Shown one piece after another: positions 23,181 through 34,102 of a stretch of DNA of 48,563 nucleotides. Both the position numbers and the translations under genes were made by a program. Each line of letters starts with the position of its first letter. The stretch's first letter is position 1. The stretch is from Marmoricola sp. (GTDB lineage: Bacteria; Actinomycetota; Actinomycetes; Propionibacteriales; Nocardioidaceae), in the NCBI GenBank assembly GCA_025964795.1, contig JAOPYC010000105.1:1-48563 (forward strand), read 5' to 3'. The notes under the pieces are model-generated. The model was given only the letters and a program-made list of their open reading frames with translations. It made no database searches and was not told where the DNA came from.

Positions 23181-24077
23181 ATGTCGATCTTTCTCAACAA
23201 GGACTCCAAGGTCATCGTCCAGGGCATCACCGGCGGTGAGGGCACCAAGCACACCCGCCTGATGCTCAAGGCCGGCACCAACGTGGTCGGCGGCGTCAAC
23301 GCGCGCAAGGCCGGCACCACCGTGACCCACCAGGACCCCGACGGCAACGACGTCGAGCTGCCGGTGTTCGGCTCGGTCGCCGAGGCGATCAAGGAGACCG
23401 GCGCCGACGTGTCGGTCGCCTTCGTCCCGCCGGCGTTCACCAAGGACGCCGTCATCGAGGCCATCGACGCCGAGATCGGCCTGCTGGTGATCATCACCGA
23501 GGGCGTGCCGGTGCAGGACTCGGCCGAGTTCTGGGCCTACGCGCAGGGCAAGTCGACCCGCATCATCGGCCCGAACTGTCCCGGCATCATCACGCCGGGC
23601 GAGGCGCTCGCGGGCATCACGCCGGCGACGATCTCCGGCTCCGGTCCGGTCGGCCTGGTCTCCAAGTCCGGCACCCTGACCTACCAGATGATGTTCGAGC
23701 TGAAGGACTTCGGCTTCTCGACCGCCATCGGCATCGGCGGCGACCCGATCATCGGCACGACGCACATCGACGCCCTCGAGGCGTTCGAGAACGACCCCGA
23801 CACCAAGGCGATCGTGATGATCGGCGAGATCGGTGGCGACGCGGAGGAGAAGGCCGCGGCGTACATCAAGGAGCACGTGACCAAGCCGGTCGTCGGCTAC
23901 GTCGCCGGCTTCACCGCTCCCGAGGGCAAGACCATGGGCCACGCCGGCGCCATCGTCTCCGACGGCGCGGGCACCGCCCAGGGCAAGAAGGAGGCCCTCG
24001 AGGCCGCCGGGGTCAAGGTCGGCAAGACGCCCTCCGAGACCGCCCAGCTGATGCGGGACATCCTGAACGGGCTCTGA
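23181..24077 (+). CDS. sucD: Succinyl-CoA synthetase (ADP-forming), alpha subunit
   Basis: Partner of SucC; binds CoA and carries the phosphohistidine. The 298-residue protein starts [21 protein letters not shown] (CoA-binding Rossmann domain) and holds the active histidine His254 in [24 protein letters not shown] and SKSGTLTYQ are conserved family blocks. The ATG lies four bases after the sucC stop, with GCAGGGG inside the sucC end serving as a weak ribosome site, so translation is probably coupled. The gene ends 14 bases before the first copy of a palindromic intergenic repeat that separates it from the convergent kynU and may terminate both. Confidence 0.97.
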
Positions 24078-24090
24078 TGGGGGTTGACGG

Positions 24091-24175
24091 GTTTTCTGGT
24101 TAACCAGTGAAACCGCCACTTCACCAACGTTGCAACGTGGGGTAAGTGGCAGGTTTTCTGGTTAACCAGAAAAAC
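24091..24175. repeat. Intergenic palindromic repeat family 1, copy A
   Basis: The unit contains CTGGTTAACCAG (24096-24107), then TGAAACCGCCACTTCACC, then the palindrome ACGTTGCAACGT (24127-24138), then AAGTGGC, and ends in the perfect 20-bp palindrome TTTTCTGGTTAACCAGAAAA (24154-24173). GCCACTT/AAGTGGC pair across the middle. The order of blocks matches copy C at 33034-33106 (TGAAACYGCCACTTC ... GCAACG ... AAGTG ... GGTTT palindrome). It fills the gap between the convergent sucD and kynU and probably forms a bidirectional terminator. Confidence 0.8.
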
Positions 24176-24177
24176 AC

Positions 24178-25347
24178 TCACGTCACCGCATTGCGCGAGG
24201 CGTACGCCGGGTCGGCGTGCTCCGCGTTCGCGATGACCGCCGCGAGCCGCTCGACCGCGGTGCGGACGTCGTCGGTGGTGTTGTAGAGCGGGGCGAAGCC
24301 GAAGCGGGCGATGTCGGGGTCGCGGAAGTCGCCGATGACGTCGCGGGCGATCAGCGCCTGGACCACGCCGTACGCCGAGGGGTGGCGCAGCGAGACCTGG
24401 CTGCCCCGGCGCTCGTGCTCGCGGGGGGTGGCGATCTCGAAGACGCCGGGCAGCCGCTCCTCGACCAGAGCGATGAACAGGTCGGTCAGCTCCAGGGACC
24501 GGTCCCGCAGGGACGCCAGCGAGACGCCGTCGAACGCCTCCAGGGCCGCCTCGAGCGCGGACAGGGCGAGCACCGGAGGCGTCCCGGAGGCGAACCGCCC
24601 CACCCCCGGGACCGGCTCGTAGTCGCGCGCCATCGCGAACGGCGTCGCGTGCCCGAACCAGCCGGTGATCGGCTGCTTCGCCGCGGCCTGGTGGCGCGGC
24701 GCCACCCAGAGGAAGGCGGGGGAGCCGGGGCCGCCGTTGAGGTACTTGTAGGTGCACCCCACCGCGAAGTCGGCGTCCACGCCGGTGAGGTCCACCGGCA
24801 CGGCGCCGGTGGAGTGGCACAGGTCCCACTGCACCAGGGCGCCGCGCGCCTGCGCCTGGGCGGTGATGCCGGCCAGGTCGAACATCGCGCCGGTGCGGAA
24901 GTCCACGTGGGTCAGGCTGAGCAGGGCCACGTCGTCGTCGACCGCGGCCAGCGGGTCGGCCGGGTCGCACCAGCGCAGCTCCAGCCCCATCAGGTCGGCG
25001 ACGCCGGCGGTGATGTAGCCGTCGGTCGGGAAGGTGGACGGCTCCACCACCAGCACCCGTCGCTCGGGGCGCAGCCGGGCCGCGGCGACCGTGGTCTTGA
25101 ACAGGCTGACGCTGGTGCTGTCGCCGAGGTGCAGGTCCTCCGGGGCGACCCCGATCAGCGGCGCGATCCGGCCGGCGACGCGACGCACGAGCTCGGTCCA
25201 GTGCGCGTCGTTCCACGAGCGGATCAGGCCCTCGCCCCACTCCCGCCGTACGACGTCCTGGAGGCGCTCGGCGACCCCGGCCGGCAGCGCGCCCAACGAG
25301 TTCCCGTCGAGGTAGACGAGCCCGTCGGGCAGGTCGAACGTGCTCAC
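24178..25347 (-). CDS. kynU: Kynureninase
   Basis: PLP enzyme of tryptophan catabolism that cleaves kynurenine to anthranilate and alanine. The 389-residue protein starts STFDLPDGLVYLDGNSLGAL, which is typical of the family. It contains SLTHVDFRTGAMFD and QWDLCHSTGAVP, and carries the PLP-binding lysine Lys201 in VGCTYKYLNGGPGSP. The GTG start at 25347 overlaps the stop of the upstream sigma-like gene as GTGA (25344-25347), so it is translationally coupled to it. No tryptophan dioxygenase or formamidase gene is in the window. Its TGA lies at the outer edge of repeat copy A. The identity is secure; the physiological link to the upstream gene is unknown. Confidence 0.95.
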   Translation of the reverse strand: MSTFDLPDGLVYLDGNSLGALPAGVAERLQDVVRREWGEGLIRSWNDAHWTELVRRVAGRIAPLIGVAPEDLHLGDSTSVSLFKTTVAAARLRPERRVLVVEPSTFPTDGYITAGVADLMGLELRWCDPADPLAAVDDDVALLSLTHVDFRTGAMFDLAGITAQAQARGALVQWDLCHSTGAVPVDLTGVDADFAVGCTYKYLNGGPGSPAFLWVAPRHQAAAKQPITGWFGHATPFAMARDYEPVPGVGRFASGTPPVLALSALEAALEAFDGVSLASLRDRSLELTDLFIALVEERLPGVFEIATPREHERRGSQVSLRHPSAYGVVQALIARDVIGDFRDPDIARFGFAPLYNTTDDVRTAVERLAAVIANAEHADPAYASRNAVT

Positions 25348-27173
25348 GGCAGCTCGAAGAGCCGGTCGCGGGCGCGTGTCATCAGCGCCTGGAAGGTGAC
25401 GTCGTCGACGTCGTTGTCGCCGGTCGGGGTGAAGTTCACCTGGGCAACGTAGCGGCCCACCCGCGCCACGCCCATCCAGAACCCCACCGTGGAGGCCTTG
25501 TCGATCTCGCTGTCGAGTCGCCACGACGCGAACTCCGACCCGCGGTAGCCGCGCGTCTGTGCGACCTCGCTGCTCACCTTCGCGCCGAGGTCCCGCTTCT
25601 CGCAGGTGCGCATGTCCTTGATGACCGCACGGACGAGCGCCGCGGCGCGGTTGGGGTTCACGAACTGGCCGTAGGTCTCGGTGATGCCGAACCGTCGCGG
25701 CAGCTGCGCCTGCGGGATCAGGAAGGTGCGGGTCATCGCCAGGGGCGCCCCGGAGGCGAGGAAGTTCGTCTTGTCGCAGGTCGTGGCCGCGACGTTGGAG
25801 CGTGCCGGGACGGGGTTGGTGCCGACCCAAGGCCTGGCGATCCGCCCGACGACCGGGAGGTCGGCCGCCGCCAGCGTGCCGGGCGTCTCGCCGGAGGGCG
25901 GCGGCAGCACCGGCGCCGCGGTGACCACGTCCGGGCACGCGCCCGAGGGGTCGGCGCCACAGACGTTGCGCAGCGCCTCGGTGAGCGCGTTCAGGGTGCG
26001 CGCGACCGGGATCGGGTGGCCGCCGCGCGTCTCGAGGACCGTGGAGACCGTCAGCGATCCGGTGCGGGCCACCCCGACGACGTAGGTGCGGCTCGTCGCT
26101 CCCGGGATCCGCAGCCTCAGCATCTCGGCCTCGTCGCCGAGGCCCTCGAGCCGGTAGGTGTTCAGCAGCTGGAGCCTCGCCTCGCCGCAGCCGGCGAACC
26201 AGCCCCGCGTGGTCGTGTACGCCGCCCGCGCGGCCGCCGCGCTGCGCGAGATCTCCACCGTCTCGAGATAGCTGCGCCGGGGCGAGCCCGAGGTCACGAA
26301 GGTGCGGACGAAGGTACCGCGGCCCTGGGGGTCGGCGAACCTCGTGTCCTGGCAGATGGAGTTGATGCCGGTGCCGGAGGTGTTGTCCGAGGTGCCGACC
26401 TCGGTCCAGCTCTCCCGGGGCGCGAGCGCCTGCACCTGCGGCAGCGAGAGCAGCATCTGCTGGGTCACCGGCCTGCCCGCCGCCGCCGGCCCTGCGGCGG
26501 CCGGCTCCTGGAGCCCGCCGGTGACGAAGACCCCACCGGCCAGCGTCAGCGCGAGCAGCACGAGGACGGCCGTCACGGCCTGCAGCCGGCGTCGCCGCTG
26601 GCCCCCGCGGTGGATCGCCAGGGCTTGCGGCAGGTCGGCCGCCTCCACGACGGGGACCAGTGACTCGATCGCGGCGAGCACACCCGTGTCGGGGGCGCCC
26701 GTCTCGCGACCGAGGCTGCGGGTGCCGGCCGTGAGCTGCTGCTCGATCCGCGCCGGGGTCTCGCCGAGCTCCCGCCCGATGTCCTCGAGGGACATCCCGG
26801 CCAGGTGGGTCAGCAGCAGCACCTTGCGCTGCTGGTCGGGCAGGTGGTGCAGCGCGTCCAGCACCCGCTTCTGGTCGGCGCTCAGCTCCTGGTCGCGGCG
26901 CCAGAGGCGGGCCACGTGGCGTCGTTGGGCCAACGCCCACGCGCGCGGCCGCACCCACTCCTCGGGGTCGGTGAGCCCGCCCACCTTGCGCCAGTGGTGG
27001 CGGGCGGCGACGAAGGCGTCGCGGACGGCGCTGCGCGCAGCCGACAGGTCCCCGGTGAGCGCGTAGGCCTCGAGCACCAGCCGACGGCGGCTCGCGAGGT
27101 AGAACTCGTCGAACTCGGGGCCCCCGGCGCTGGAGGCTCCCGCGTGTCTGGCGGAGTCGTTGGATCTGGGCAT
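25344..27173 (-). CDS. Membrane-tethered ECF-sigma-like protein with extracytoplasmic domains
   Basis: A 609-residue fusion. Residues about 20-155 resemble a SigE-type ECF sigma factor: region 2-like FYLASRRRLVLEAYALTGDL, then the region 4 helix-turn-helix (LPDQQRKVLLLTHLAGMSLE, DIGRELG). A basic linker (QRRRR) leads to one transmembrane helix (about 198-219). Two extracytoplasmic parts follow (about 235-405 and 430-609), with few cysteines, resembling PknH-like sensor folds. The polarity places the sigma part inside. Region 2 is poorly preserved, so it may act as a DNA-binding regulator rather than a true sigma. The ATG at 27173 sits 9 bases below a TAGCCT box next to a perfect inverted repeat. 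It is translationally coupled to kynU. Confidence 0.75.
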   Translation of the reverse strand: MPRSNDSARHAGASSAGGPEFDEFYLASRRRLVLEAYALTGDLSAARSAVRDAFVAARHHWRKVGGLTDPEEWVRPRAWALAQRRHVARLWRRDQELSADQKRVLDALHHLPDQQRKVLLLTHLAGMSLEDIGRELGETPARIEQQLTAGTRSLGRETGAPDTGVLAAIESLVPVVEAADLPQALAIHRGGQRRRRLQAVTAVLVLLALTLAGGVFVTGGLQEPAAAGPAAAGRPVTQQMLLSLPQVQALAPRESWTEVGTSDNTSGTGINSICQDTRFADPQGRGTFVRTFVTSGSPRRSYLETVEISRSAAAARAAYTTTRGWFAGCGEARLQLLNTYRLEGLGDEAEMLRLRIPGATSRTYVVGVARTGSLTVSTVLETRGGHPIPVARTLNALTEALRNVCGADPSGACPDVVTAAPVLPPPSGETPGTLAAADLPVVGRIARPWVGTNPVPARSNVAATTCDKTNFLASGAPLAMTRTFLIPQAQLPRRFGITETYGQFVNPNRAAALVRAVIKDMRTCEKRDLGAKVSSEVAQTRGYRGSEFASWRLDSEIDKASTVGFWMGVARVGRYVAQVNFTPTGDNDVDDVTFQALMTRARDRLFELP

Positions 27174-27182
27174 GACAGGCCG

Positions 27183-27188
27183 AGGCTA
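27183..27188 (-). promoter_or_regulatory. Candidate -10 box of the sigma-like gene (TAGCCT)
   Basis: Minus-strand TAGCCT lies nine bases upstream of the ATG at 27173, allowing a leader of only about three bases. A 9-bp inverted repeat begins at its edge. Confidence 0.5.
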
Positions 27189-27208
27189 CCCGCGTGCCTC
27201 ACGCGGGT
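27188..27208. repeat. Perfect inverted repeat in the sigma-like/perM intergenic region
   Basis: ACCCGCGTG, CCT, CACGCGGGT: perfect 9-bp arms with a 3-base centre, in the 60-bp space between divergent genes. It abuts the candidate -10 of the sigma-like gene, so a bound protein could block that promoter. Confidence 0.55.
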
Positions 27209-27233
27209 CGTCGCGATCCTGGGTCAGGATGGG

Positions 27234-28511
27234 ATGGCGATGACTGACCTGCTGAGCCGACCCTCCGCCGCGAGCTCGTCCCGGGGCCCCTCCGGGGGCG
27301 CCGCCGGACGCCTGTTCCGCCTCCTCACGGGGCACGGTCCAGGTGGGTCGACGGGCGCGCCCGAGGGCCGCCCGTTGACGGTGTCGGCCGCGCTGGCCGC
27401 GCTGGCGGCCGTGGGGACCTCGATGGTGCTCTGCATGGGTGTCGCCGTCATCGGCTGGTTCCTCGCCGACGCCGGCGCCCACGGGCAGACCACGGACGCG
27501 CTGCGCGTCGGCGCCGACGCCTGGCTCGTGGGCCACGGCTCGCACCTGAGCCTGGGCGGCGTCCCGCTGGGCATCGTCCCGCTGGCCCTGACGGCATTGT
27601 TCGCCGTGGTGGTCTACCGCAGCGGGCGCTGGGCGGCGCAGTCCTCGGAGCCGGTGGCGGACGACCGCACCATCGCGCTCGGGGCCACGATCTTCACCGG
27701 GCTCTACGTCGTCGTCGCGGTGGTCACCTGCCTGGTCGCCGCCCAGGACTCCGTGAGCGCGGGCCTCGGCCGGACCATCCTCGGCGCGCTGCTCCTCTCC
27801 GCGAGCGCCGGCACGATCGGGATGGCGTCGGGCGCGGGACGCCTGCGCGGCTGGGTCGAGCTCGTCCCCGGCTGGGTCCGCTCGGTCGCCCACGGCGCCA
27901 CGGTCGCCTGCCTGCTCCTGCTCGCCGCCTCCGCCGTCCTCGTCCTGGGTGCCGTCGTCGTCGGCATCAGCGAGGCCGCCACCGTGCTCTCCGAGCTGCA
28001 CCTCGGCCCGGGCGACTACGTGATGTACGCGGTGGCCACCCTCGCCGTCGTCCCCAACGCGGTCCTGTTCGGCACTGCCTACCTGCTCGGTCCCGGCTTC
28101 GCGGTCGGCACCGGCACTGTGGTCTCGCCGACCGTGGTGTCGCTCGGCCCGGTCCCCGCCTTCCCGCTGCTCTCCGCGCTGCCGGGCAACGGCCCGACCC
28201 CCTCGTGGGCGGTGGCCCTGCTCGCCCTACCCGTCATCGCCGGGGCCACTGGCGCGGTGCTCGCCCAGCGCTCCTACCGGGTCACGGCGTACGACTCCGC
28301 GGCGCTGCGCGGCTTCGGCTGCGGCTTCGTCGCCGCCCTGGTCACGACCCTCGCGATCGCGCTGGCCGGGGGCCCGATGGGCACCGGCCGGATGGCCGAC
28401 ATCGGCGCCCCGGTGGGGGAGGTGCTGGTCACCGCCGTCGCGGCGATGAGCCTGGGCGGCCTGGTCGCGGGCGTCGCCACCGCCTGGTGGCAGCGGCGGT
28501 CGGTTTCCTAG
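27234..28511 (+). CDS. perM: DUF6350 membrane protein (PerM-like)
   Basis: A 425-residue integral membrane protein with about eight to ten hydrophobic helices after a 45-residue polar, Ser/Gly-rich cytoplasmic head. It occupies the position directly upstream of purN-purH that in Mycobacterium holds perM (Rv0955), a divisome-associated permease-like protein; the assignment is mainly by this synteny plus topology. The loop GADAWLVGHGSHL and GPVPAFPLLSALPGNGPTPSW fit DUF6350 as I know it. Transport activity is unproven. Start ATG 27234, or the second ATG at 27240. Divergent from the sigma-like gene; purN begins 13 bases after its stop but has its own leaderless promoter. Confidence 0.78.
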   Translation: MAMTDLLSRPSAASSSRGPSGGAAGRLFRLLTGHGPGGSTGAPEGRPLTVSAALAALAAVGTSMVLCMGVAVIGWFLADAGAHGQTTDALRVGADAWLVGHGSHLSLGGVPLGIVPLALTALFAVVVYRSGRWAAQSSEPVADDRTIALGATIFTGLYVVVAVVTCLVAAQDSVSAGLGRTILGALLLSASAGTIGMASGAGRLRGWVELVPGWVRSVAHGATVACLLLLAASAVLVLGAVVVGISEAATVLSELHLGPGDYVMYAVATLAVVPNAVLFGTAYLLGPGFAVGTGTVVSPTVVSLGPVPAFPLLSALPGNGPTPSWAVALLALPVIAGATGAVLAQRSYRVTAYDSAALRGFGCGFVAALVTTLAIALAGGPMGTGRMADIGAPVGEVLVTAVAAMSLGGLVAGVATAWWQRRSVS

Positions 28512-28512
28512 G

Positions 28513-28518
28513 TAGCCT
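28513..28518 (+). promoter_or_regulatory. -10 box of leaderless purN (TAGCCT)
   Basis: TAGCCT sits directly after the perM-like stop and exactly six bases before the purN GTG at 28525. No Shine-Dalgarno sequence is visible. This gives the purine genes their own promoter within an otherwise tight cluster. Confidence 0.62.
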
Positions 28519-28524
28519 GTCCAG

Positions 28525-29130
28525 GTGCCCTCCCGCCTCGTCGTACTCGTCTCGGGGGCCGGGACCAACCTCCAGGCCCTGCTGGAGGCCGCCGAGGACC
28601 CGTCGTACGGCGCGCAGGTGGTCGCGGTCGGCGCCGACCGCGACGACATCGAGGGGCTCGCGCGGGCCGAGAAGGCCGGCGTCCCGACGTTCGTGCGCAA
28701 GGTCGGCGACTTCACCAGCCGCGGGCACTGGGACATCACGCTGACCGACACGGTGGCCGCCTTCGAGCCCGACCTCGTCGTGCTCGCCGGCTTCATGAAG
28801 CTCGTGGGGCCGGAGTTCCTCGGCCGGTTCACGGGCCGGGTCGTGAACACGCACCCGGCGCTGTGCCCGGCCTTCCCCGGCACGTCCGGCCCCGCCGACG
28901 CGCTCGCCTACGGTGTCAAGGTCACCGGCGCGACGCTGTTCGTGGTCGACGAGGGGGTCGACACCGGCCCGATCATCGCGCAGGCGACGGTGCCCGTGGA
29001 GGACACGGACGACGTCGAGTCCCTGCACGATCGGATCAAGGTCGCCGAGCGCTCGATGCTCGTGGAGACCGTGGGCCGCCTCGCCCGAGAAGGCTTCACC
29101 ATCACCGACAGGAAGGTGCGGATCGGCTGA
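28525..29130 (+). CDS. purN: Phosphoribosylglycinamide formyltransferase
   Basis: Third step of IMP synthesis: moves a formyl group from 10-formyl-THF to glycinamide ribonucleotide. The 201-residue protein begins [20 protein letters not shown] (phosphate-binding loop) and has the catalytic set Asn108 and His110 ([14 protein letters not shown]) and Asp146 (VDEGVDTGP). The GTG at 28525 is preceded by a TAGCCT box six bases upstream and no ribosome site. Its TGA overlaps the purH ATG by one base (TGATG), coupling the two formyl-transfer steps of the pathway. Confidence 0.95.
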
Positions 29131-30725
29131 TGACCGAGAGCACAGCACAGAGCATCACGGACCGACCCGACCTGGGGCGCGTGGCCCTGAAGAGGGCCCT
29201 GGTCTCCGTCTACGACAAGGGCGGCCTGGAGGACCTCGTCCGGGGCCTGGCCGACGCCGGCGTGGAGCTCGTCTCCACCGGTGGTTCCGCGAAGCTGATC
29301 GCCGACCTCGGCCTGCCCGTCACCAAGGTCGAGGACCTCACGGGTTTCCCGGAGTGCCTCGACGGCCGGGTGAAGACGCTGCACCCGAAGGTGCACGCGG
29401 GCATCCTGGCCGACCGGCGGCTGCCCGAGCACGTGGCCCAGCTCGTCGAGCTGGGGATCGCGCCCTTCGACCTGGTGGTCTCCAACCTCTACCCGTTCAC
29501 CCAGACCGTGATGTCCGGGGCCTCGCCCGACGAGTGCGTCGAGCAGATCGACATCGGCGGCCCCTCGATGGTCCGCGCGGCCGCGAAGAACCACCCCTCG
29601 GTCGCGATCGTGACCTCCCCGGCGCGGTACGCCGACGTGCTGGCGGCACTCGCCGAGGGCGGCTTCACCCTCGAGCAGCGCAAGCGGCTCGCGGCGGAGG
29701 CGTTCGTGCACACCGCGACGTACGACGTGGCCGTGGCCAGCTGGATGGGCTCGGTGCTCACCGACAGCTCCGACGGCGCCGGCTTCCCCGCGTGGGTCGG
29801 TGGCACCTGGAACCGGTCGGCGGTGCTGAGGTACGGCGAGAACCCGCACCAGTCCGCCGCGCTCTACCTCAACGAGTTCGGTCCCGGCCTGGCGCAGGCG
29901 CAGCAGCTGCACGGCAAGGAGATGTCCTACAACAACTACGTGGACGCGGATGCGGCGCGGCGGGCGGCCTACGACTTCGACGAGCCGGCCGTGGCCATCA
30001 TCAAGCACGCCAACCCGTGCGGGATCGCGGTGGGGGCGGATGTCGCCGAGGCGCACCGCAAGGCCCACGAGTGCGACCCGGTCTCCGCGTTCGGCGGCGT
30101 GATCGCGGTGAACCGCCCGGTGTCGGTAGAGATGGCCACACAGGTCGCGGAGGTGTTCACCGAGGTGGTCGTGGCTCCGGCGTACGAGGACGGGGCGGTG
30201 GAGATCCTCCAGGGCAAGAAGAACGTGCGCCTGCTGGTGTGCGAGCCGCTCGCGCGCGGTGGCGTCGAGTCCCGGCCGATCTCCGGCGGGCTGCTGATGC
30301 AGCAGCGCGACGCGATCGACGCCGAGGGCGACGACCCGTCCGGCTGGACGCTCGCCACCGGCGACGCGGCCTCCGACGAGGTGCTCGCCGACCTGGCCTT
30401 CGCCTGGAAGGCCTGCCGGGCGGCCAAGTCCAACGCCATCCTGCTCGCCTCCGGCGGCGCCTCGGTCGGCATCGGCATGGGCCAGGTCAACCGTGTCGAC
30501 TCCTGCCGCCTCGCGGTCACCCGTGCCGGCGGCCGGGCGGCCGGCTCGGTGGCCGCCTCCGACGCCTTCTTCCCCTTCGAGGACGGCCCGCAGATCCTGA
30601 TCGACGCCGGCGTCTCCGCCATCGTGCAGCCCGGCGGCTCCGTCCGCGACGAGCTCACCATCGAGGCGGCCCAGAAGGCGGGCGTGACGATGTACTTCAC
30701 CGGCACTCGCCACTTCGCTCACTGA
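29130..30725 (+). CDS. purH: Bifunctional AICAR transformylase / IMP cyclohydrolase
   Basis: Last two steps of IMP synthesis. The 531-residue protein has the N-terminal MGS-like cyclohydrolase domain ([31 protein letters not shown] region, [20 protein letters not shown]) and the C-terminal AICARFT domain ([36 protein letters not shown] and the end [16 protein letters not shown]). All key blocks are present and the length is normal. The ATG overlaps the purN stop. folD follows after 25 bases and supplies the 10-formyl-THF used by both PurN and PurH, so the operon groups consumer and producer of the cofactor. Confidence 0.97.
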
Positions 30726-30750
30726 ACCCGCTTCCTGAAAGGATCCGACC

Positions 30751-31623
30751 GTGACTGCACAGAGGCTGGACGGGACCGCCACCGCCAAGGCGATCAAGGG
30801 CGAGCTGACCGATCGCGTGGCCAAGCTGCGCGAGGCCGGCGTGACCCCGGGGCTGGGCACGATCCTGGTCGGGGACGACCCGGGCTCGACGTGGTACGTC
30901 AACGGCAAGCACAAGGACTGCGCGGAGGTCGGCATCGAGTCGATCCGTGAGGACCTGCCGGCGACCGCGACGCAGGAGGAGATCCTGGCCGCCGTACGAC
31001 GGCTCAACCAGAACCCCGACTGCACCGGCTACATCGTCCAGCTCCCGCTGCCCAAGGGCATCGACGAGAACGCGGTGCTCGGTGAGATCGACCCCACCAA
31101 GGACGCCGACGGGCTGCACCCGACCAACCTCGGCTGGCTCGTCCTCGGCAAGCCGGCGCCGCTGCCGTGCACGCCGTTCGGCATCGTCACCCTGCTGCGC
31201 CGTCACGGCGTCGAGATCAAGGGGGCCGACGTCGTGGTCGTCGGCCGCGGCGTGACCGTGGGTCGCCCGCTCGGCCTGCTGCTCACCCGCCGATCCGAGA
31301 ACGCCACGGTGACGCTGTGCCACACCGGCACTCGTGACCTGGCCGCGCACGTGCGGCAGGCCGACATCGTGGTCGCGGCCGCCGGCGTGCCCGGGATCAT
31401 CACCGCCGACATGGTCAAGCCGGGCGCCGCCGTGCTCGACGTCGGGGTCTCCCGCGTGGACGGCAAGCTCGCCGGCGACGTCGACCCGGCGGTGTGGGAC
31501 GTCGCGGCCTGGGTCTCGCCGAACCCCGGGGGAGTGGGCCCGATGACCCGCGCGATGCTGCTCTCCAACGTGGTGGAGAACGCCGAGGCAGCCCTCGGGT
31601 CCGGGGACAGCTCGAGAGCGTGA
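30751..31623 (+). CDS. folD: Methylenetetrahydrofolate dehydrogenase / cyclohydrolase
   Basis: Bifunctional one-carbon enzyme interconverting 5,10-methylene-THF and 10-formyl-THF. The 290-residue protein has the YVNGK motif (Tyr49, Lys53), the signature [13 protein letters not shown], the PCTPFGIV loop, the NADP-binding [15 protein letters not shown] and the C-terminal [14 protein letters not shown]. The GTG at 30751 is preceded by GAAAGGA. Its TGA overlaps the start of the DUF3017 gene by four bases (GTGA). It completes the purN-purH-folD unit, providing formyl donor for purine synthesis. Confidence 0.96.
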
Positions 31624-31919
31624 TCCCCTCGGAGGAGCCGCGACGGATCCCGTCCACCGTGGGTGGGCTGGTCTACCTGATCGTGGTCGCGACCACCGGG
31701 TTCGGCCTGCTGATCATCGCCTTCGGCCCCTGGCGTCGCGGCGTCGTCCTGATCGGTGCCGCGCTGATCGTCGGCGCGCTCGCCCGAGCCGTCTTCCGCG
31801 ACCGCGATGCCGGCATGCTCCGCGTCCGCCGCAACCGCTGGATCGACGTACTCATGCTCGGCGGGGTCGGCACCGCCCTGATCCTGCTGGCCAGCGTGAT
31901 CCCCAACCAGCCGGCGTAG
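31620..31919 (+). CDS. DUF3017 small membrane protein
   Basis: A 99-residue protein whose GTG start overlaps the folD stop (GTGA, 31620-31623). A polar N-terminus ([15 protein letters not shown]) precedes three predicted membrane helices: [38 protein letters not shown] and [19 protein letters not shown], with basic loops [15 protein letters not shown] between them. Location after folD and the [10 protein letters not shown] loop are typical of DUF3017, which is widely conserved in Actinobacteria with no assigned role. It is co-translated with folD and is the last gene before repeat copy B. Confidence 0.85.
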
Positions 31920-31940
31920 TCACAGGGGCCTCACTAGTGT

Positions 31941-32034
31941 GCAGGTTTCCCCGGTTAACCGGCGACCCCTGGACTTATGACCCGATGCTTCGCCTGAGAA
32001 GTGTCGGTTTCCCCGGTTAACCGGGGAAACCTGC
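31941..32034. repeat. Intergenic palindromic repeat family 1, copy B
   Basis: GCAGGTTTCCCCGGTTAACC starts at 31941 and its 22-bp reverse complement ends at 32034. The inner end is a perfect 26-bp palindrome with arms GGTTTCCCCGGTT and AACCGGGGAAACC (32006-32031), preceded by AAGTGTC as in the other copies. It lies between the DUF3017 gene and the convergent nucleoside hydrolase, and the central TTA (32017-32019) is the hydrolase's TAA stop. Confidence 0.8.
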
Positions 32035-33015
32035 AACCTTCCCGGTCACCGTCTCCAGCCACAGCCGCGCATATCGGGGCCCGTCCACCTCGAGCGCGAC
32101 GTCGATCAGAGCCGGGGCCTGGCCGTGCGGGTCGTGGGCCAGGTTGCCGTCCCAGTCGCGGCGGTCGACGATCGTGCGGCCGCGCGACCAGGTGCCGGCG
32201 AGCTCGACGCGGACCGGCAGGCGCTCGGTGGTGAGCCCGTCGGGATCGAGTACGGCGCACACCGCGCCGGCGTCCCCCAGGGTCGCGGAGTCGGCCCCGA
32301 ACCGCTCGCACTGGAAGGCCATCAGCCGCCCGGCCAACCCGGCGGGACCGGTGTCGTGGGCCGCGACCAGGTCACGAGCCTCGGCCAGCGAGACCCGCGG
32401 GCCGTAGAACACGTCCAGCCCGTACATCACCACCTCGATGCCCAGGTCCGCGCACGCGTCCAGGGTGATCGCAGCCGCCTCCGGGTCGTGGAAGACGTTG
32501 AACTCCGCCGAGGCCGTGGCGTTGCCGAGGTGCGCCGCGCCGCCCATGAACACGATCCGCTCGAGCCCGCGTGCTGCCTCGGGGTAGGTGCGCAGCAGCA
32601 GGGCGATGTTCGTCATCGGCGCCAGCGGGACCAGGGTGATCCTGTCCTCCTCCGACCCAGCGGCTGCTTCGAGGAGCACGTCGCGCAGCAGCTCCACGGC
32701 CTGGCGCGACCCGGGGCCACGGTTCGACCTCGGCCAGTCCAGGTCGCCCATCCCGTCGTCGCCGTGCACGTGCCGTGCGTCGACCGGCGCCTCGAGCAAC
32801 GGTCGAGCGGCACCGGCCCCCACCGGAACGCCTTGGCGCCCGCAGGTGTCCAGCACGCTCAAGGTGTTGCGCACCACGTCGGGCAACGGCGCGTTCCCCC
32901 CGACACAGGTGACCGCGCGCAGGTCCAGTGAGGGGTGCAGCGCCGCCAGCAGGAGAGCACAGGCGTCGTCGACCCCCGTGTCGACGTCGAGGACGATCGG
33001 CGTACGCACGCTCAC
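32017..33015 (-). CDS. Inosine-uridine-preferring nucleoside hydrolase family protein
   Basis: Predicted N-ribohydrolase that releases free bases from nucleosides for salvage. The 332-residue protein opens with TPIVLDVDTGVDDACAL, giving the calcium-binding DxDxxxDD cluster (Asp10, Asp12, Asp16, Asp17), and has VPLAPMTNIALLL and FMGGAAHLGNATASAEFNVF with DPEAA following, all conserved in the IUNH fold. The substrate range cannot be inferred. The GTG at 33015 lies downstream of GGGGGAAG, which belongs to repeat copy C. The last residues (AGFPG) and the TAA stop are encoded by the palindrome of copy B, so the C-terminus seems to be made from the repeat. Confidence 0.9.
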   Translation of the reverse strand: MSVRTPIVLDVDTGVDDACALLLAALHPSLDLRAVTCVGGNAPLPDVVRNTLSVLDTCGRQGVPVGAGAARPLLEAPVDARHVHGDDGMGDLDWPRSNRGPGSRQAVELLRDVLLEAAAGSEEDRITLVPLAPMTNIALLLRTYPEAARGLERIVFMGGAAHLGNATASAEFNVFHDPEAAAITLDACADLGIEVVMYGLDVFYGPRVSLAEARDLVAAHDTGPAGLAGRLMAFQCERFGADSATLGDAGAVCAVLDPDGLTTERLPVRVELAGTWSRGRTIVDRRDWDGNLAHDPHGQAPALIDVALEVDGPRYARLWLETVTGKVAGFPG

Positions 33016-33033
33016 GGCTGTTCACTTCCCCCT

Positions 33034-33106
33034 TGAAACTGCCACTTCCCCCGCATGGCAACGCGGGGGAAGTGATGGTTTCACTGGGGACCCAGTGAAA
33101 CCGCCA
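33034..33106. repeat. Intergenic palindromic repeat family 1, copy C
   Basis: Two perfect hairpins in tandem: CACTTCCCCCGC/GCGGGGGAAGTG (33043-33054, 33063-33074; 8-base loop ATGGCAAC) and GGTTTCACTGGG/CCCAGTGAAACC (33077-33088, 33091-33102; 2-base centre). Preceded by TGAAACTGC and followed by GCCAC as in copy A. It sits between the mdh stop and the nucleoside-hydrolase start on the minus strand, so it may end mdh transcription. Confidence 0.8.
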
Positions 33107-33112
33107 CCAGCC

Positions 33113-34102
33113 TCAGATCAGCCCGAGCCCCGTGACCGCGTCCCGCTCCTCGGCGAGCTCCTTGGTGGAGGCGTCGATCTTGGTGCGGGAGAAGTCGTTG
33201 ATCTCCAGGCCCTGGACGATCTCCCAGTTGCCGTCCTTGGTGGTGACGGGGAAGGAGGAGATCAGGCCCTCGGGGACGCCATAGGAGCCGTCCGAGCGCA
33301 CCGCCATCGAGACCCAGTCGCCCTCGGCGGAGCCGGTCAGCCAGTCGCGGGCGGCGTCGATGGTCGCGGAGGCGGCCGAGGCGGCCGAGGAGGAGCCCCG
33401 GGCCTCGATGATCGCGGCGCCGCGCTTGGCGACGGTCGGGATGAAGTCGTTCTCCAGCCAGCCCTGGTCGTCCACGGTCTCGGCGGCGTTCTTGCCGGAG
33501 ATCTCGGCGTGGAAGATGTCGGGGTACTGCGTCGCCGAGTGGTTGCCCCAGATCGTCATCTTCTTGATCTCGGTCACCGAGGCGCCGGTCTTCGCGGCCA
33601 GCTGCGAGATGGCGCGGTTGTGGTCGAGGCGGGTCAGCGCGGTGAACCGCTCCGGGGCGATGTCGGGGGCGTTGGTCATCGCGATCAGCGCGTTGGTGTT
33701 GGCCGGGTTGCCGGTCACGCCGATGCGGATGTCGTCGGCGGCCACCTCGTTGAGGGCCTTGCCCTGCGCGGTGAAGATGGCGCCGTTGGCCTCGAGGAGG
33801 TCCGCGCGCTCCATGCCGGGTCCGCGCGGGCGCGCGCCGACGAGCAGGGCTAGGTTGACGCCGTCGAAGACCTTGGTGGCGTCGGCGCCGATCTCCACGC
33901 CCGCCAGCGTGGGGAACGCGCAGTCGTCGAGCTCCATGACGACGCCCTCGAGCGACTTCAGGGCGGGCTCGATCTCGAGCAGGCGCAGCTCGATCGGCTG
34001 GTCCGGCCCGAGCAGCGAGCCGCTCGCCAGACGGAAGAGCAGGCTGTAGCCGATCTGGCCGGCGGCGCCGGTGACGGCGACCTTGAGGGGTGCGTTGGAC
34101 AC
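33113..34102 (-). CDS. mdh: Malate dehydrogenase
   Basis: NAD-dependent TCA-cycle enzyme interconverting malate and oxaloacetate. The 329-residue protein shows the Rossmann motif [12 protein letters not shown] (about residues 11-22), substrate-binding [32 protein letters not shown] with the active-site aspartate and [11 protein letters not shown] with the catalytic histidine. This is the cytosolic-type (group 2) malate dehydrogenase common in Actinobacteria. GTG at 34102 follows AGGAG (34108-34112 on the opposite strand). It is divergent from icd; the 235-bp gap should hold both promoters. Repeat copy C begins seven bases after its stop. Confidence 0.96.

Follow-up and report, generated by a model that had tools for sequence, protein, structure and literature searches.

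A REP-like repeat family in Marmoricola and its relatives, with a candidate AbiEi-nuclease gene as its partner

Repetitive extragenic palindromic (REP) sequences are the closest described counterpart of the repeats considered here. As set out in parts of the literature on them, REPs are short palindromes present in many copies, mostly downstream of genes and also as inverted pairs, and several subfamilies may occur in one genome, each beside its own gene (PMC2817692, PMC3116915, PMC3733652). The genes concerned encode REP-associated tyrosine transposases (RAYTs), which are described as being flanked by two inverted REPs, as keeping their place while the REPs change and as each occurring in a single copy (PMC2817692, PMC3116915). 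The CGTC-tagged REPs are said to have no dedicated transposase, and how such repeats spread in the absence of a RAYT is named for them as an open question (PMC3733652). The subject of this work is a stretch of 48,563 nucleotides from Marmoricola sp. (contig JAOPYC010000105.1 of assembly GCA_025964795.1; hereafter the window), in which three intergenic palindromic elements represent two repeat subfamilies, A and B. These are probably REP-like subfamilies that are spread or homogenised by a protein whose gene they bracket elsewhere in the genome, and which combines an AbiEi-like part with a putative nuclease.

The elements are built from a core hairpin and an outer palindrome, P, and are located in the window as follows:

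24090..24175, + strand: subfamily A element in its double-palindrome form (core hairpin between two P hairpins)
24090..24114: left P palindrome of the first A copy, with loop TTAA (repeat D1 in the repeat search)
24115..24150: core hairpin of the first A copy, GCCACTT...AAGTGGC around GTTGCAAC
24152..24175: right P palindrome of the first A copy
31941..32034, + strand: subfamily B element, flanked by a P palindrome on either side and with a core unlike that of A
31970..32005: core region of the B copy, TGGACTTATG...GAGAAGTGTC
32006..32031: P palindrome on the right of the B core, GGTTTCCCCGGTTAACCGGGGAAACC
33023..33102, + strand: subfamily A element in its single-palindrome form (head D1, core hairpin, P)
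33023..33032: head D1, CACTTCCCCC, repeated directly in the core left arm 20 nt downstream
33040..33075: core hairpin of the second A copy
33077..33102: P hairpin of the second A copy, separated by 10 nt from the mdh gene end at 33113 (minus strand)

The first-pass annotation had described three intergenic palindromes with one shared scaffold, all at gene 3' ends. That the palindromes are real is clear from motif counts and folding: allowing up to two mismatches, GAAACNGCCACTT occurs six times in the window, always inside the three copies (1.13 expected; 0/100 shuffles), and CCGGTTAACCGG seven times, four of them at the copies (1.84 expected; 0/100 shuffles reach 7), while the folding energy of each copy lies far under that of shuffles on both strands (z -5.8 to -9.2). 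A repeat search of the window also groups the three together, and chance similarity is rejected on the motif counts and on the covariance-model matches described below. The single scaffold holds in part, since the outer palindrome is of the same type throughout (on both sides in the copy at 24091, on one side in that at 33034), whereas the copy at 31941 has another core, GGACTTATGACCCGATGCTTCGCCTGAGAAGTG, and belongs to the sister subfamily B; it is absent among the matches of a BLAST search with an A copy. The third copy, given as starting at 33034, really begins about 11 nt earlier because of its head. All three do stand at gene 3' ends, in the convergent gaps sucD/kynU and DUF3017/nucleoside hydrolase and in the tandem gap mdh/nucleoside hydrolase. 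According to our own gene call, the stop codon of the nucleoside hydrolase gene (32017-33015, minus strand) lies in the TTAA centre of the P palindrome at 32006-32031, so that the final codons of this gene, stop included, would come from the B element. A scan of the whole window at Rfam gathering scores gave no family at the copies; its only match was a c-di-AMP (ydaO/yuaA) riboswitch at 2651-2826 on the minus strand (66.2 bits).

The genome that holds the window (G000, with the window on contig C134; 4.32 Mb in 204 contigs) contains many further copies. BLAST with the copy at 24090 found about a dozen further places, to which another search added more, and BLAST with the copy at 31937 a second set. 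Subfamily A comprises 15 copies, with the core TGCCACTTCCCCC-RCGTTGCAACGY-GGGGGAAGTGGC adjoining a palindrome P that is typically GTTTCACTGGNNNNCCAGTGAAAC, and subfamily B 17 copies, with a core typically CTGCACTTCTCAGGCGATGCTTCGCCTGAGAAGTGCAG adjoining P GTTTCCCCGGTTAACCGGGGAAAC and, in most, a head like GGACAAANCGGGYGGGGTTCTCAGGC. One more place (L153) came from the covariance model, which brings the genome to at least 33 places; this number includes the window's own two A copies and one B copy, and leaves out core-less single P hairpins, such as three at the end of the B set. One copy (L031:478-548, contig C58) is a hybrid, in which an A core and left P half are joined at GGTTAACC to a B-type right P half.

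The geometry of the elements is rigid while their sequence differs by genome. When matches to R1, the covariance model built from subfamily A, were counted outside its training set, 134 of the 142 primary matches measured 71 nt, six 70 nt and two 72 nt, a result somewhat biased by the preference of the model for ungapped matches. The head repeats the left arm of the core directly, at a distance of exactly 20 nt: mean identity at this offset is 0.638 in 116 single-palindrome elements, compared with 0.21-0.32 for the remaining offsets between 10 and 30, and 0.484 in 46 double-palindrome elements, against at most 0.391 elsewhere, and arms compared between elements of different genomes match at 0.47. 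Near-identical copies with unrelated flanks in two genomes (G059 and G147; within-genome median identity 0.93) suggest that the copied unit is about 79 nt including the head, and no target duplication was visible by eye at these copies. A sequence-free scan for the geometry was dropped, being too noisy in GC-rich DNA, where other spacings score alike. The arms also show compensating changes, above shuffles on three of five measures in either subfamily. In the A alignment, ten cells change on both sides against 3.9 expected, with a covariation score reached by 0/500 shuffles; the numbers of pairs with change on both sides (reached by 40/500) and of further pair types (298/500) are unexceptional. 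In the B alignment, 19 cells do so against 8.9 expected (0/500), and for the two remaining measures 38 and 69 of 500 shuffles do as well. These shuffles leave relatedness in, and slid structures score far lower.

In several genomes, inverted pairs of elements about 1.1 kb apart bracket a gene. Each subfamily of G000 has one, outside the window:

G000 contig C176, 9.1-10.0 kb: gene A, bracketed by an inverted A pair
G000 contig C88, 60.3-61.3 kb: gene B, bracketed by an inverted B pair

The partner proteins are homologous, 312-322 aa long and 35-53% identical to the A protein of G000; the two strong homologues of this genome are 37% identical, and other genomes carry up to a few. The proteins of G000 B and of G010 are 53% identical, and the head motif GGACAA-CGGRYG is common to G000 B and to a different-looking subfamily of G009 and G010. 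The N-terminal part is AbiEi-like, with Pfam AbiEi_4 near or above cut-off and a PADLOC assignment to AbiEi, and the C-terminal part carries S..E...D..W...E.DG..KY...EK.RE, invariant in 7/7 aligned proteins. An endonuclease fold is likely for the latter by transitive homology, because a distant full-length homologue (L386; profile E 8.9e-23) matches REase_MTES_1575 and DUF559 above cut-off in this region. Among solved structures, the close-family profile gave only a weak match to the Bax1 endonuclease (E 0.8) and L386 none.

Strong matches to the gene profile (E below 1e-90) are found in 16 of the 24 genomes of the genus, plus a gene in G013 (L382, C129:4897-5827) that is split into two frames in this metagenome-assembled genome (MAG), in which many solo copies are present. 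Orthologues occupy the same places: a polyprenyl synthetase locus holds the gene, with the same neighbours, in G000, G002, G003 and G013, and a lipoamide dehydrogenase locus in G002, G009 and G010 (flanks judged by eye). An autonomous insertion sequence moving itself is not favoured for this gene, as several orthologues stay in place. The neighbours of five such genes match PhoX, polyprenyl synthetase (twice), a lipoamide-dehydrogenase-type oxidoreductase, a 2-oxoacid acyltransferase, EamA, an ABC transporter, LacI, an aldolase and DUF3151, and none of these ten is an AbiEii toxin. The gene profile found no relative among 42 pattern matches in viral contigs, and one protein of the family searched in phages gave nothing.

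The link between repeats and gene was measured by a flank score, which compares the upstream flank with the reverse complement of the downstream flank, and for which a line of 26 was set after the nulls had been seen. This line is reached at 21 of 24 strong loci, with L377 (21.8), L381 (14.8) and L371 (12.8) below; at L371 a long perfect inverted repeat, recognisable by eye, was skipped by the stop-codon extension. It is also reached at 25 of 27 loci from the class set, where L404 and L420 fail and L422 is truncated, so that 45 of 50 distinct genes (one being common to both sets) have strong inverted flanks. Mismatched flank pairs average 13.6 and 13.8 in the two sets, with maxima of 36.4 and 58.4, both of which presumably come from pairs of the same clade. 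Six weak homologues were scored, L389 not being among them; four resemble background, and the other two, L383 and L385, which are more distant AbiEi-endonuclease-like genes, have inverted flanks of other sequence, for instance arrays around GACCGGTCA, hinting at a wider phenomenon. With R1, an outward-facing inverted pair (P ends outward) is seen at 10 of 23 strong loci and at none of the weak homologues L383-L389. By eye, the flanks of L371, L392, L393 and L395 consist of long inverted repeats whose outer part is hardly or not at all palindromic. In the upstream flanks of the gene, a 20-nt offset is the top direct-repeat offset in the genus, in other genera and at three loci of another family.

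Solo copies also resemble the flanks of the gene in their own genome. Of 128 solo copies in nine genomes, 96 find their best match in a gene flank of their own genome, whereas 20 relabelings gave 13.4 on average and 36 at most; the 128 exclude 18 copies that equalled a flanking copy, dropped beforehand, as well as 28 from genomes that had no flank in the set. Of the 30 solo copies of G000, 13 match a gene A flank and 13 a gene B flank at 0.70 identity or more. Strong gene homologues and R1 matches co-occur among the 24 genus genomes (both, gene only, R1 only and neither: 16/1/3/4 if the split G013 gene is counted, Fisher p 0.014; 15/1/4/4 if it is left out, p 0.028). Of the five R1-negative genomes, four have weak relatives only, and in the remaining one, G020, a strong gene is flanked by a palindromic variant that has diverged.

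R1 matches occur in 19 of 24 genomes of the genus (E 1e-3), in 72 of 149 genomes and 13 of 26 genera of the family (E 1e-4), which we infer to be the Nocardioidaceae, and in 24 of 394 genomes of the class (E 1e-5), of which 23 belong to that family and the last is marginal (6.8e-6). In a collection of named genomes, the exact P-palindrome pattern was found in 39 stretches, only in two MAGs of Nocardioides, which is a genus of the Nocardioidaceae, by a search that may omit the window's own record, and one element searched in plasmids gave nothing. The gene reaches further, with profile matches at E 1e-50 in 75 of the 394 class genomes, also outside the family, and with the actinobacterial families f23, f12 and f7 among its holders. 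In another actinobacterial family (f23), relatives (L417, L418, L420, L422) appear at one fixed locus, and three of these four have long inverted repeats (scores 59-73). The first-pass annotation had left the choice between a REP-like and a terminator-like family specific to the lineage, to be recognised by further copies and by compensating changes. Lineage specificity is borne out by the confinement of repeat matches to one family, and the REP-like reading is strongly supported by the 33 or more places in G000, this one-family spread, the covariation and the candidate dedicated gene.

Clearly, the copies are subject to turnover. Element sites could be paired between genomes in 55 cases with homologous flanks and consistent orientation, and in 40 of these the homology extends, on one side or both, to 60 nt or less from each element. 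The elements at these sites are a median 0.58 identical, against 0.59 for random between-genome pairs, and the best copy within the same genome reaches a median of 0.85 and beats the site counterpart in 37 of 40, a contrast inflated by picking the best among many copies. For instance, the site at 24090..24175 has a counterpart in G002 with homologous flanks on both sides and an element only 0.63 identical, and at the mdh site of the window identity is 0.68 for the element of G003 and 0.70 for that of G013. At one site the elements of G002, G009 and G010 are only 0.49-0.56 identical, with flanks up to 98%, and the G003 element there resembles that of G009 (0.77); at another, the same element is kept in G009 and G010 (0.86). 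In 800 kb of G009 and G010, of which 334 kb align in long blocks, mostly 89-96% identical, 20 of 22 R1 matches could be placed in the other genome, where most are shared, and three G010 matches (56270, 171293 and 281469 of the joined string) have no such element in G009. A clean insertion of another hairpin element lies directly behind a stop codon of G010 (L258:7523-7614; C1, about 757.5 kb) and is absent from G009; it consists of the P GATTACCCGGACGTCCGGGTAATC and a long hairpin, and further hairpin stretches differ between these genomes.

The copies lie close to stop codons, prefer convergent gaps and are rare in divergent ones. With gene neighbourhoods from a simple gene caller of our own, 129 elements divide into 54 convergent, 58 tandem and 3 divergent, with 13 at contig edges or beside an uncalled neighbour and one inside a called gene; gaps of at least 60 nt with and without an element number 52 and 5 when convergent, and 3 and 53 when divergent, at loci chosen for their elements. 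In the unselected 800 kb of G009 and G010, 22 matches (13 convergent, 8 tandem, 1 divergent) compare with 29 convergent, 164 tandem and 103 divergent gaps of at least 60 nt (convergent against divergent, p 2.6e-9, each match counted as one gap), counts that are not independent, since some sites are common to both genomes. The median distance to the stop codon is 8.5 nt from the P end and 11 nt from the head end, and in tandem gaps the copies stand 11.5 nt behind the upstream stop and 67.5 nt before the next start (medians).

How the repeats and the protein might work together can be outlined conditionally. Through its AbiEi domain, the protein would recognise the repeats of its own subfamily by their 20-nt-spaced direct repeats and hairpins, and its nuclease may promote spread and homogenisation by moving the solo element or by a cut-and-copy route (gene conversion), much in the manner presumed for RAYT transposases and REPs. 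Copies would then last best just behind stop codons, where they may be harmless, or useful as bidirectional terminators or 3'-end stabilisers. Such a terminator function is plausible, and the placement fits it. It is also conceivable that the elements are mainly RNA devices, namely bidirectional U-less terminators or stabilisers of mRNA 3' ends, which the gene merely carries on both sides. The strong folds on both strands, the compensatory changes and the convergent or tandem placement at a median of 8.5-11 nt from stop codons are what such devices would show, and this explanation is compatible with spread by the protein; as the principal account we regard it as unlikely, since a rigid length, a 20-nt direct repeat outside the hairpin and homogenisation within genomes are superfluous for a terminator, no U-tract is present, and the bracketing of one gene family in 45 of 50 cases is left unexplained.

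The fixed spacing is suggestive of protein contacts, and AbiEi proteins are described, in the part of the literature consulted, as binding inverted repeats or palindromes and autoregulating (PMC3985639). The elements could accordingly be binding sites of the AbiEi-nuclease acting as a regulator or as a nucleoid or self-marking protein, the gene-side copies being its operator. The avoidance of divergent, promoter-bearing gaps (one match per 103 gaps), the second inverted copy behind the gene and an invariant nuclease-like motif, superfluous for regulation, make this quite improbable. Dispersed palindromes of 80-95 bp that are present in one relative and absent from another also recall miniature inverted-repeat transposable elements of an ordinary insertion sequence, with the gene as a passenger. 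We consider this very improbable indeed, because one and the same gene family is bracketed in every case, inspection of near-identical copies by eye showed no target-site duplication, and Y1_Tnp, the only transposase family with a working test, is found in 0/24 genus genomes.

Several observations weigh against spread by the bracketed protein. R1 finds no full inverted pair at 13 of 23 strong loci, and three genomes (G001, G005 and G008) have R1 matches without a strong gene homologue. Solo copies in G009 (0/4) and G010 (1/13) are not best matched by the own flanks used, in a test set that lacked some genes of these two genomes, and the own-genome matching as a whole could come partly from genome-wide homogeneity rather than enzyme specificity. 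Across 13 genes, protein and flank identity do not correlate (Spearman 0.10; 1150/5000 permutations as high), with agreement only between near pairs, and in downstream flanks the 20-nt offset is top in other genera only, being second or tied second elsewhere. At the protein level, the C-terminal domain of the close family has no Pfam nuclease match at E 1, and AlphaFold models of two sequences were unusable (predicted local distance difference test score, pLDDT, 31.7). Movement, binding and cleavage by the AbiEi-nuclease protein are all deduced from sequence. As to the use of the copies at gene ends, a terminator scan of 23800-33400 gave two sites, neither at a copy, and no U-tract at the copies.

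On balance, we lean slightly towards a second, independently evolved REP system, in which a domesticated AbiEi-winged-helix/PD-(D/E)XK-type nuclease takes the place of the HUH transposase in spreading the repeats and keeping them uniform, and which extends through the Nocardioidaceae and into other actinobacterial families, the latter because the gene and its flanks occur there. If true, the arrangement of a gene flanked by its own repeats arose twice, an enzyme is named for repeats without a RAYT, and a function is provided for an actinobacterial protein family labelled only AbiEi by Pfam and PADLOC here. It also offers a reason why gene-end palindromes vary in sequence between species yet keep their place and shape. 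Among the open-licence papers listed by literature searches, none ties this gene family, or the REase_MTES_1575 and DUF559 families, to repeats.

When compared with the known systems, the likeness to the AbiE type IV toxin-antitoxin systems is confined to the N-terminal AbiEi winged helix, since the tested neighbours include no AbiEii and the protein has an extra endonuclease-like domain and repeat flanks. The REase_MTES_1575 and DUF559 families are resembled by the C-terminal domain of L386, the close family being too divergent for a direct Pfam match. A likeness of the P arms to parS half-sites was dropped, given the 10 nt between the halves and the deviation of other subfamilies. A RAYT origin is likewise rejected: Y1_Tnp (PF01797) is absent at E 0.01 from all 24 genus genomes, one of them 75% complete, while 6 of 14 control genomes match; a search for Y2_Tnp was uninformative, its controls giving nothing either. 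Neither REP tag is enriched in the heads (GTAG 6/174, background 7.8%; CGTC 37/174, background 33.9%), and at the element ends both were counted without a background. The CGTC-tagged REPs share the presence of REP-like repeats without a RAYT and differ in the tag itself and in that a candidate dedicated gene is present here. Membership of the REP/RAYT systems of Pseudomonas, Stenotrophomonas and enterobacteria thus fails on enzyme and tag, and the repeats are therefore described, by their anatomy, as a REP-like system with a different enzyme. The enzyme, an AbiEi winged helix with a REase-like domain, comes from an unrelated family, and the units are longer, with a 71-nt match and about 79-95 nt in whole, and contain a 20-nt direct repeat. 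In other features the two systems are alike, namely in many extragenic palindromes, mostly at gene 3' ends, and in inverted pairs, in a dedicated gene between two inverted repeats, with A and B each beside their own, and in vertically inherited orthologous genes that stay at a fixed place while the flanking repeats change.

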